A DNA stretch of 64,000 nucleotides, from the NCBI RefSeq assembly GCF_007556755.1, contig NZ_VJOO01000001.1:186001-250000 (forward strand), written 5' to 3'. The first letter of the stretch is position 1, and every line of letters starts with the position of its first letter. Source of the DNA: Tepidimonas fonticaldi. Its GTDB lineage: Bacteria; Pseudomonadota; Gammaproteobacteria; Burkholderiales; Burkholderiaceae_C. Made by a program: the position numbers and the translations under genes. The notes under the pieces were generated by a model. The model was not told the DNA's origin. It searched no databases and saw nothing but the letters and a program-made list of their open reading frames with translations. Of the stretch, positions 6,354-9,856 are shown piece after piece.

Positions 6354-7160
6354 ATGGGTTTTCTGGCCGGCAAGAAGCTGCTGATCACCGGGGTTTTGTC
6401 CAACCGCTCGATCGCCTACGGCATCGCGCGCGCCTGCCGCGCCCAGGGGGCGGAACTGGCCTTCAGCTACGTCGGTGAGCGCTTCAAGGACCGCATCACG
6501 GAGTTCGCCGCCGAGTTCGGCTCCAACCTCGTGTTCGAGTGCGACGTCTCGGACGACGCCAACATCGAGCGCCTGTTCCAGGATCTGTCGGCGCACTGGC
6601 CGACGTTCGACGGCTTCGTGCACAGCATCGGCTACGCGCCGCGCGAGGCCATCGCCGGCGACTTTCTCGACGGTCTGTCGCGCGAGGCCTACCGCACCGC
6701 ACACGAGATCAGCGCCTACAGCTTCCCGGCCATGGCCAAGGCGGCGCTGCCCTACCTGAACGACCGCGCCGCACTGCTGACACTGACCTACCTGGGCAGC
6801 GTGCGCATGGTGCCGGCCTACAACACGATGGGGCTGGCCAAGGCGAGCCTGGAGGCCAGCGTCCGTTACTTGGCCGAATCGCTGGGCAGCAAGCGGCGCG
6901 GCTGGCGGGTCAACGGCATCTCGGCGGGCCCGATCAAGACCTTGGCCGCCAGCGGCATCAAGGGCTTCGGCAAGATCCTGAACGTGGTCGAGAGCAACGC
7001 CCCGATCCGGCGCAACGTCACCATCGACGACGTCGGCCACACGGCGGCGTTTCTGCTGAGCGACCTCGCGGCCGGCATCAGCGCCGAGGTGATCTACGTC
7101 GACGGTGGCTTCAGCCAGGTGATGGGCGGGCTGGCGGCCGGCGACGCTGCCGAAGCGTGA
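6354..7160 (+). CDS. fabI: Enoyl-[acyl-carrier-protein] reductase (NADH) FabI
   Basis: 268 residues. Reduces trans-2-enoyl-ACP in the last step of each fatty acid elongation cycle, in the cytoplasm. Short-chain dehydrogenase of the FabI class: N-terminal [11 protein letters not shown] nucleotide-binding loop (residues 13-23) and the catalytic Y146, Y156 and K163 at the same numbers as in E. coli FabI ([19 protein letters not shown]). The ATG at 6354 is chosen because it follows ACGAGGAGCAC and gives the standard [13 protein letters not shown] start. Triclosan-target class. Confidence 0.96.
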
Positions 7161-7176
7161 GCCGCCCCGCGGGCGA

Positions 7177-7803
7177 TCACTTCAGGTTGCCCAGATAGGC
7201 CGCCACCGCCTCCAGCTCCAGGTCGCTCAGGCGGTGCGACATCACGCGCATGATGGCGTTGTCGCGGTTGCCCGTGCGCTCTTTGAATGCCTGCACCTGA
7301 CGGATGATGTACTGCGGGTGCTGGCCTGCCAGGCGCGGCAGTTCGGTGGTGCCGGTCGCGCCGGGCCCGTGGCAAGTGGCACACGGTGGCAGACCGCTGT
7401 GGCGGTTGCCCCGCTCGTACACATAGCGCCCCACGGCCAGCAGCAGCTCGTCGCCGCTGGGGGTGTGCCCCGGCTTCTGGCGCGCGTAGTACTCGGCCAC
7501 CGCTTCGATGTCGCTGGGGCTCAGGCCCTTGACCTTCTCGGTCATCGCGGTGTCCTTGCGCTCACCACTGGCAAAGGCCTGGAGCTGACGCGTCAAATAC
7601 TGGGCATTCTGGCCCGCCAGACGGGGGAAGTTGGGCGCCACGCCCTGCCCGCACGGACCGTGGCAAACCGCACAGCGGTCCCGGGCAATGAGCTCGCCGA
7701 TCACCAGCGGATCGGTGGACTGGGCCTGCGTCCCCCAAGCCGCCATGCCCATGGCCACCGCCGCGATCGTGCGGCGCAGCGCCGTCTGCCAAGCCTTGCT
7801 CAT
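7177..7803 (-). CDS. Diheme c-type cytochrome (cytochrome c4 family)
   Basis: 208 residues. Signal peptide of about 27 residues ending TQA; then two class-I cytochrome c domains with heme sites CAVCH (44-48) and CATCH (141-145). M87 in DTAMTE and a Met in the C-terminal DNAIMRVM stretch are candidate axial ligands. The symmetrical two-domain plan matches periplasmic cytochrome c4, which carries electrons from the bc1 complex to terminal oxidases. It converges on fabI with a 16-bp gap. An FNR/FixK-like box and matching -10 lie upstream, suggesting oxygen-responsive control (inference). Confidence 0.88.
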   Translation of the reverse strand: MSKAWQTALRRTIAAVAMGMAAWGTQAQSTDPLVIGELIARDRCAVCHGPCGQGVAPNFPRLAGQNAQYLTRQLQAFASGERKDTAMTEKVKGLSPSDIEAVAEYYARQKPGHTPSGDELLLAVGRYVYERGNRHSGLPPCATCHGPGATGTTELPRLAGQHPQYIIRQVQAFKERTGNRDNAIMRVMSHRLSDLELEAVAAYLGNLK

Positions 7804-7850
7804 CTGTTGCTCCAGGAATGGGTCCCGGGTCGCCGACGACCCCTGCCACC

Positions 7851-7891
7851 ATCCTAGGGAAACCCCGCAACAGCACCTTGACGCGCGTCAA
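7851..7891 (-). promoter_or_regulatory. Candidate FNR/FixK-type class II promoter of the cytochrome gene
   Basis: A perfect palindrome TTGACGCGCGTCAA (7878-7891) matches the TTGA-N6-TCAA consensus of the CRP/FNR family (FNR, Anr, FixK). On the minus strand, 21 nt after it, is TAGGAT (7856-7851), a reasonable -10. That spacing puts the box centre about 41 nt before the predicted start near 7844, the class II activator position. The cytochrome ATG follows at 7803. Confidence 0.55.
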
Positions 7892-7984
7892 CATCGCTGC
7901 ATCGGCATGCAACGATGCACGGACGCGTGCGGCCGATCCGCAACGGGGCGCGCCTCGTCCCCGCCGCGTGGCCGAAACCAAGCT

Positions 7985-9856
7985 TCAGCGCCGCGGCGGC
8001 GGCAGATCGGTGCAACTGCCGTGCGCCACCTCCGCCGCCATGCCGATGCTCTCGCCCAGCGTGGGGTGCGGGTGGATGGTCTTGCCAATGTCCACCGCGT
8101 CGGCGCCCATCTCGATGGCCAGCGCGATCTCGCCAATCATGTCGCCAGCGTGGGTGCCCACGATGCCGCCGCCCAGGATCTTGCCGTGACCGTGGGCCTC
8201 GGGGCGGTCGTCGAACAGCAGCTTGGTAAAGCCTTCGTCGCGGCCATTGGCGATGGCACGGCCCGACGCCGTCCAGGGGAACAGGCCTTTCTTGACGGGG
8301 ATGCCCTGCGCCTTGGCCTGGTCTTCGGTCAGGCCCACCCAGGCGACCTCGGGGTCGGTGTACGCCACACTCGGAATCACCCGCGCATTGAACGCACTGC
8401 GGGCCAAGGCCGCATCCCCCAGCAGTTCGCCAGCGATCACCTCCGCCGCCACATGGCCTTCGTGCACGGCCTTGTGCGCCAGCATGGGCTGGCCCACGAT
8501 GTCGCCGATGGCGAAGATGTGCGGCACGTTGGTGCGCATCTGGATATCGACGCTGATGAAGCCCCGGTCGGTCACGGCCACGCCGGCCTTGTCGGCCGCG
8601 ATCTTCTTGCCGTTGGGTGTGCGGCCCACGGCCTGCAGCACCAGGTCGTAGATGCCTTCACTCTTGGTACCGTCCAGCCCCTCGAACTGCACCCGGATAC
8701 CCTCGGGCGTGGCCTGTGCCCCCACGGTCTTGGTCTTCAACAGGATGTTGTCGAAGCGGCCCTTGTTCATCTTCTCCCAGACCTTGACCAGATCGCGGTC
8801 GGCGCCCTGCATCAGACCGTCCATCATTTCCACCACGTCGAGCCGCGCGCCCAGGGTGGAGTACACGGTGCCCATCTCCAGCCCGATGATGCCGCCACCG
8901 ATGATGAGCATTTTCTTCGGCACTGTCGGCAGCGCCAGGGCACCCGTGCTGTCCACGATGCGCGGGTCGTCGGGCAGGAACGGCAGCCGCACGGCCTGCG
9001 AACCGGCCGCGATGATGCACCGCTTGAACGCCACCACTGTCTTGCTGCCGGTCTTGTCCTGGCCGGTGCCGGTGGTTTCTTCCACTTCGACGTGGTTGGG
9101 GCCGACGAAGGCCCCGTAACCACGCACCACCGTGACCTTGCGCATCTTGGCCATGGCGGCCAGCCCACCCGTGAGCTTGCCGATGACCTTTTCCTTGTGG
9201 CTGCGCAGCTTGTCGATATTGACCACCGGGCGTCCGAACTCCACGCCCAAGTCGGCCATATGGCTGACCTCGTCCATCACGGCGGCCACGTGCAGCAGCG
9301 CCTTGGAGGGGATGCAGCCGACGTTCAGGCACACGCCGCCCAAGGTGGCGTAGCGTTCCACGATCACCACTTTCAAGCCGAGGTCGGCGGCGCGGAACGC
9401 GGCGGAGTAGCCGCCCGGCCCCCCGCCCAGCACGAGCACGTCGCACGCCAGGTCGGCGCTGCCGCTAAAGCTGGCCGCCGCCGGCAACACCGCGGCCGCC
9501 ACCACGGGCGCAGCGGACGAGGCCGGGGCCGCCACCGCAGCCGCAGCAGGCGCGGACGCCGGGGCACCAGTGGTCGGTGCCGAGGGCGCCGAGGAGGGCA
9601 CGGCCGCGGCCGCCTCACCGGCCACCTCCAGCGACAGAATCACCGACCCCTCGCTGACCTTGTCGCCCAGCTTGACCTTGAGTTCCTTCACCACACCCGC
9701 GTGGCTGGACGGGATCTCCATCGACGCCTTGTCGGACTCCACCGTGATGAGGGACTGATTCACCTGGACCGTGTCGCCCGGCTTGACCAGCAGCTCGATG
9801 ACCGCCACGTCCTTGAAGTCGCCGATATCGGGAACCTGGATATCCATCAATGCCAT
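7985..9856 (-). CDS. lpdA: Dihydrolipoyl dehydrogenase (E3) with N-terminal lipoyl domain
   Basis: 623 residues, longer than a plain E3 (about 475) because it starts with a lipoyl domain (residues 1-80, lipoyl lysine K43 in ESDKASM) and an Ala/Pro linker to about residue 145. The E3 core has the FAD loop [13 protein letters not shown], the redox disulfide C176/C181 ([13 protein letters not shown]), a second dinucleotide fold ([12 protein letters not shown]) and the C-terminal [10 protein letters not shown] with the catalytic histidine. It reoxidises dihydrolipoamide of the pyruvate dehydrogenase complex with NAD. The ATG at 9856 gives the conserved lipoyl start; 13 nt from aceF. Last gene of aceE-aceF-lpdA. 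Confidence 0.95.

Follow-up and report, generated by a model that had tools for sequence, protein, structure and literature searches.

Fnr is an activator that loses its iron-sulphur cluster on exposure to oxygen. Here we compare a putative Fnr-type promoter of the hot-spring bacterium Tepidimonas with described systems, among them one from Herbaspirillum, a genus that belongs, like Tepidimonas, to the Burkholderiales. The betaproteobacterium 'Candidatus Accumulibacter phosphatis' UW-LDO-IC is reported to carry an FNR-like motif with kinds of genes that are also boxed in Tepidimonas; the genes named in that report, whose transcripts are more abundant in the absence of oxygen, include cco, hemN, cytochromes c2 and c4, uspA and hemerythrin (PMC6446978). 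Accumulibacter belongs to a different order and its regulon is described there as expression-backed, whereas the Tepidimonas regulon is predicted from sequence, and the c4 genes are compared by name. In the alphaproteobacterium Magnetospirillum, FnrN is predicted to control the cytochrome c4 gene cycA through an FNR-family site (PMC4999443); the likeness is by gene name, and the FnrN control is itself a prediction. FNR control of c4 genes is, as these two accounts describe it, already reported or predicted.

The promoter layout also has a described counterpart. Herbaspirillum seropedicae has an Fnr site whose centre lies at -42 and which is counted as class II, like the Tepidimonas layout; it differs in that the start is mapped, the promoter is that of fnr1 itself, and three Fnr orthologues are reported (PMC5934665). 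Sites of R. sphaeroides FnrL reported from ChIP-chip include TTGAC-N4-GTCAA forms (PMC2908626). A search for literature that treats FNR, cbb3 and anaerobic life together in Hydrogenophaga found none, and we do not claim that the cytochrome promoter is absent from print.

A candidate class II promoter before a c4-like cytochrome gene

The window, meaning the whole 64-kb stretch of DNA that was analysed, holds the following features at this locus, listed with the basis of each.

7985-9856, minus strand: upstream gene with lipoyl and pyridine-nucleotide-disulphide oxidoreductase domains, ending at 7985 (context)
7878-7891, minus strand: Fnr-type box TTGACGCGCGTCAA, a perfect palindrome (sequence; kept in 20 of 21 clade members)
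7856-7851, minus strand: -10-like hexamer TAGGAT (sequence; all 20 boxed relatives have a counterpart 21 or 22 nt after the box)
About 7844, minus strand: predicted transcript start, +1 (placed from the -10 position)
7813-7810, minus strand: ribosome-binding-site-like GGAG, 6 nt before the ATG at 7803 (sequence)
7803-7177, minus strand: diheme c4-like cytochrome c gene, 208 aa (two CxxCH motifs, Pfam, solved relatives)
7660-7674, minus strand: first haem motif, CAVCH (sequence)
7369-7383, minus strand: second haem motif, CATCH (sequence)

The product of the 7803-7177 gene agrees with the initial annotation, which had called it a diheme cytochrome of the c4 type. It contains two c-type haem motifs, CAVCH and CATCH, and two cytochrome c stretches recognized by Pfam, and its best solved relatives by hmmsearch (6q2u, E 6.5e-33; 1etp, E 6e-30) are both named cytochrome c4, a periplasmic protein. 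Curated naming was less specific: no NCBIfam model reached its cut-off, and only general Pfam cytochrome c models matched. CcoP, PdsA and other NCBIfam names were rejected, all falling far below their cut-offs. Compared with 6q2u and 1etp, the Tepidimonas protein shares both haem motifs over equal length but carries one additional cysteine, Cys51, which is invariant and follows the first CxxCH by three residues. This residue (codon 7651-7653, within CAVCHGPCG) is unchanged in each of the 10 Tepidimonas orthologues and is absent from the haem motifs of the other loci found in a scan of a named genome collection.

Upstream of the gene, the initial annotation had described a perfect TTGA-N6-TCAA palindrome, a TAGGAT hexamer 21 nt downstream of it and a box centre about 41 nt from the predicted start. 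All three descriptions hold. The palindrome occupies 7878-7891, the gap is exactly 21 nt (7857-7877), and the box centre, 7884.5, lies near -40.5 relative to a +1 near 7844, a value that assumes TAGGAT to span -12 to -7. Class II promoters of the FNR family are marked by a palindromic TTGA-N6-TCAA site centred near -41.5 and a -10 element at 21-22 nt; the palindrome is present with half-sites that are invariant in 20 of 20 boxed relatives, and the geometry agrees as far as sequence can tell. A plain sigma-70 promoter for the cytochrome gene was rejected, since no -35/-10 hexamer pair was found in 7100-8100, and no opposite-strand gene that the box could serve was seen.

The box TTGACGCGCGTCAA is the single occurrence of TTGA-N6-TCAA in the window. 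Shuffled windows contained a mean of 0.12 matches, with at least one match in 12 of 100 shuffles, so that the box is only mildly unusual when judged from the window alone. These frequencies would suit a palindrome that is a chance match or a relic, with the cytochrome transcribed by read-through from the upstream gene, which we take to be lpdA-like. Such read-through is possible because no terminator-like site was found in the intergenic stretch: a consensus scan of the DNA separating the box from the lpdA-like gene returned no terminator, and although this DNA folds more stably than most of its shuffles (z -2.46, with 2 of 200 shuffles equally good), the fold has no T run after it. A stem-loop-forming repeat on the transcribed strand, without a following T run, is present at 7898-7919, just upstream of the box.

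Conservation of the box and of its spacing

Lack of the box before orthologous genes was named in the initial annotation as refuting its reading, and a check of this point came out in its favour. The box is conserved in Tepidimonas (10 of 10), in Hydrogenophaga-type relatives (5 of 5) and in the best family matches outside Tepidimonas (five), which amounts to 20 of the 21 members of the clade that contains the window gene. The genus search covered 60 genomes and found an orthologue in ten genus genomes, namely the window's own and G002-G010; in G001, which is 88% complete, the best match to the window gene is a paralogue. A perfect TTGA-N6-TCAA lies upstream of all ten orthologues, with inner bases that vary and both half-sites constant. 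The flanking DNA of G007 and G006 hardly aligns, yet the box and a hexamer (TACCAT, TACGAT) are still there.

Beyond the genus, the next five loci in the named genome collection are Hydrogenophaga-type relatives with 49-55% identity (L085-L089). Each has a perfect box, TTGACTTGTATCAA or TTGACTTGCATCAA, followed by CAGAAT after 22 nt, and the box is kept despite different gene neighbourhoods. The same scan gave 65 more distant loci, some of them close to contig ends, so that under 400 nt of upstream sequence is available (for example L105 and L122); a perfect box was found in one (L109) and one-mismatch sites in five (L116, L125, L127, L129 and L131). A family search of 299 genomes provided 22 further loci out of the best 30 matches, after removal of Tepidimonas repeats (L252-L255) and repeats of earlier loci (L262, L267, L268 and L273). 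Among these 22, the five best matches outside Tepidimonas (L256-L260) are boxed and the other 17 are unboxed.

Phylogenetic analysis placed the boxed genes together. The first tree had 58 rows, including 24 of 79 named-collection loci and 18 of the 20 loci L013-L032, and the box labels of six paralogue rows were set manually. All 15 rows known at that stage to be boxed fall into a single clade (support 100/96), whose sister clade is C9-type, with 0 of 9 rows boxed. The wider tree has 49 rows, carries a long-branch warning and has hand-entered box labels outside the 22 new rows; in it the clade of the window gene (support 93/95) is boxed in 20 of 21 members. The remaining member, L263, has no perfect box upstream.

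Spacing was counted in the 20 boxed rows, L263 being omitted, with a -10-like hexamer defined as A at position 2, T at position 6 and at least four of six matches to TATAAT. Such a hexamer follows the box at 21 nt in 7 rows and at 22 nt in 13, so that the class II geometry given in the initial annotation for the window's gene recurs, at the level of sequence, in every boxed clade member. The same hexamer was seen in 3 cases at other spacings between 3 and 44 nt and at 33 of 7840 positions elsewhere in the upstream stretches.

Because relatives keep the box at the same spacing, the promoter looks genuine, though well-known in kind. The box is retained in 20 genes whose box core and flanks have changed, with the -10 spacing fixed, and Hydrogenophaga-type loci retain it in other surroundings. 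Chance origin, open from the window alone, is rejected by conservation and spacing together, and a chance match or relic combined with read-through from the lpdA-like gene is very improbable. An Fnr-type promoter very probably stands before the c4-like cytochrome gene of Tepidimonas, judging from this sequence pattern.

Candidate regulators and the predicted regulon

The regulator had been proposed to be of FNR/FixK type. The Fnr part of this proposal stands, with a protein of the window's genome scoring 254 bits against the NCBIfam cut-off of 228; the FixK part is not supported, no match to FixK exceeding a cut-off. Fnr was found in 11 of 11 genus genomes with identities of at least 87%. In an alignment with a solved FNR-type regulator, its four cysteines match those of that protein. 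The genome-encoded Fnr that class II control calls for, with cluster cysteines and an E-x-x-S-R helix, is present throughout: C10, C13, C19 and C112 together with ETVSR occur in the Fnr of all 11 genomes (L165 is numbered from another start). The fnr region contains TTGAY-N4-RTCAA in 11 of 11 genomes, and in 10 of them the site resembles the window box in having C as its fifth and G as its tenth base.

We estimate a probability of roughly 0.85 that the resident Fnr binds at the box and so activates the c4-like cytochrome, in class II fashion, at low oxygen. At low oxygen, an Fnr dimer would bind the palindrome at 7878-7891 and contact RNA polymerase positioned by TAGGAT, in the class II manner with the box centre near -40.5. 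This contact would switch on the c4-like diheme cytochrome, which would then carry periplasmic electrons, probably to the cbb3 oxidase, whose gene ccoN is similarly boxed. Fnr binding, activation, the oxygen response and the electron partner are all steps that we infer.

The layout bears on the direction of control. For some FNR-motif genes of Accumulibacter, those for the aa3 and ba3 oxidases, transcript levels are reported to be lower while FNR is active (PMC6446978), and Fnr might likewise bind the Tepidimonas box and repress the cytochrome gene. A centre near -40.5 with a -10 element and no plain -35 is, however, an activating class II layout, shared with the reported -42 site of Herbaspirillum fnr1 (PMC5934665), and repression is extremely improbable.

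A second FNR-like protein, C31, with CxxC and the same ETVSR recognition motif as Fnr, could be the main reader of the box, in which case the signal might be something other than oxygen sensed through a four-cysteine cluster. Of the 11 genus genomes, 9 encode full-length relatives of C31 and a further one has a fragment at a contig edge, and several Fnr orthologues with overlapping sites are reported for Herbaspirillum (PMC5934665). C31 nevertheless scores well below the NCBIfam cut-offs (Fnr, 74 against 228 bits; FnrL, 84 against 300 bits), and all 11 genomes have the fnr/hemN-region box, even G001, in which C31 was not found. We consider it unlikely that C31, and not Fnr, is the main reader.

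The window's genome also encodes a regulator that we take to be DNR-like, together with norC-like and nirS-like genes, and the box might accordingly be a DNR-type site responding to nitric oxide. Anr and Dnr sites of Pseudomonas aeruginosa have been called indistinguishable (PMC6588701), so DNR could add control in this one strain. Among the 11 genus genomes, of which two are 73% and 88% complete, the DNR-like protein has a close counterpart in one, the window's own, the best match elsewhere being 25% identical, whereas the box stands before 10 of 10 orthologues and is thus conserved without DNR. Moreover, the norC-like and nirS-like genes carry another palindrome, TTGAAC-N2-GTTCAA. DNR as a general regulator of the box is rejected by this distribution, and a nitric oxide-responsive DNR-type site is a very slight prospect.

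Of the 35 TTGA-N6-TCAA sites in that genome, only two have the form TTGAAC-N2-GTTCAA (L040 1501-1514, G000:C4:59458; L041 1501-1514, C4:70270), which is perhaps the DNR-type site of this strain. The DNR-like gene lies on the same contig as the norC-like and nirS-like genes, and norB/norC are given only to T. fonticaldi among the strains compared in PMC7386788, so that this species or a close neighbour may be the source of the window.

Across the 11 genus genomes, TTGAY-N4-RTCAA occurs 251 times against 11 for a reversed control pattern, and in the window's genome 21 times against 1. In the latter genome the looser TTGA-N6-TCAA gives 35 against 11, and a sizeable share of its matches are intragenic. 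There, ccoN is preceded by a box, and boxes also lie within the hemN/fnr region (names from NCBIfam models over cut-off), close to three hemerythrin-domain genes, a CoxB gene and a sulphur-transport gene, and between genes for a heavy-metal P-type ATPase and a Usp protein; Tepidimonas genomes are annotated with cbb3 oxidase in PMC7386788. Around the 21 TTGAY-N4-RTCAA sites, 13 -10-like hexamers lie within 5-40 nt on either side, 5 of them at 21-22 nt, so that class II spacing is clear for the cytochrome gene and only suggestive for the other sites.

A box identical to TTGACGCGCGTCAA is located 62 nt before a sulphur-transport family gene (L066 2001-2014, G000:C88:86712). Perfect boxes also precede FadL-type (Toluene_X) outer-membrane genes, at L085 668-681 and L087 514-527 in Hydrogenophaga-type loci and at L047 1501-1514 in the window's genome.

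Boxed and unboxed c4-like paralogues

Less expected is that the c4-like paralogues divide into boxed and unboxed groups. A perfect box was found upstream of 0 of 11 C9-type and 0 of 11 C33-type paralogues of the genus, the latter including one-mismatch sites at L226 and L246. Twenty c4-like genes of other relatives (L013-L032, among which L017 is a Tepidimonas C9-type gene) likewise gave 0 perfect boxes and a one-mismatch site at L031. All 8 C8-type paralogues counted, one per genus genome, have a perfect box; their list has nine rows, from the genus genomes other than G001 and G006, and L244 (G007) was excluded as having been fetched because of its box. The C8-type box (L045 1501-1514, G000:C8:59333) sits between the cytochrome and a divergent AAA ATPase gene, which it could also serve.

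We tentatively propose, at somewhat under even odds, that a c4-like branch of the Burkholderiales gained a lasting class II Fnr promoter, held at near-fixed spacing across gene neighbourhoods, with its C9-type sister outside Fnr control. If this is true, the boxed branch would be a dedicated low-oxygen carrier and the C9-type a general one, with oxygen choosing between them, and the invariant Cys51 of the Tepidimonas form could be part of the low-oxygen specialisation. The general view of Fnr promoters is unchanged. The boxed and unboxed paralogues form a set that can be used for asking why bacteria hold several diheme carriers, and the c4-like carrier joins the predicted Fnr regulon of Tepidimonas and its relatives, alongside ccoN and hemN.
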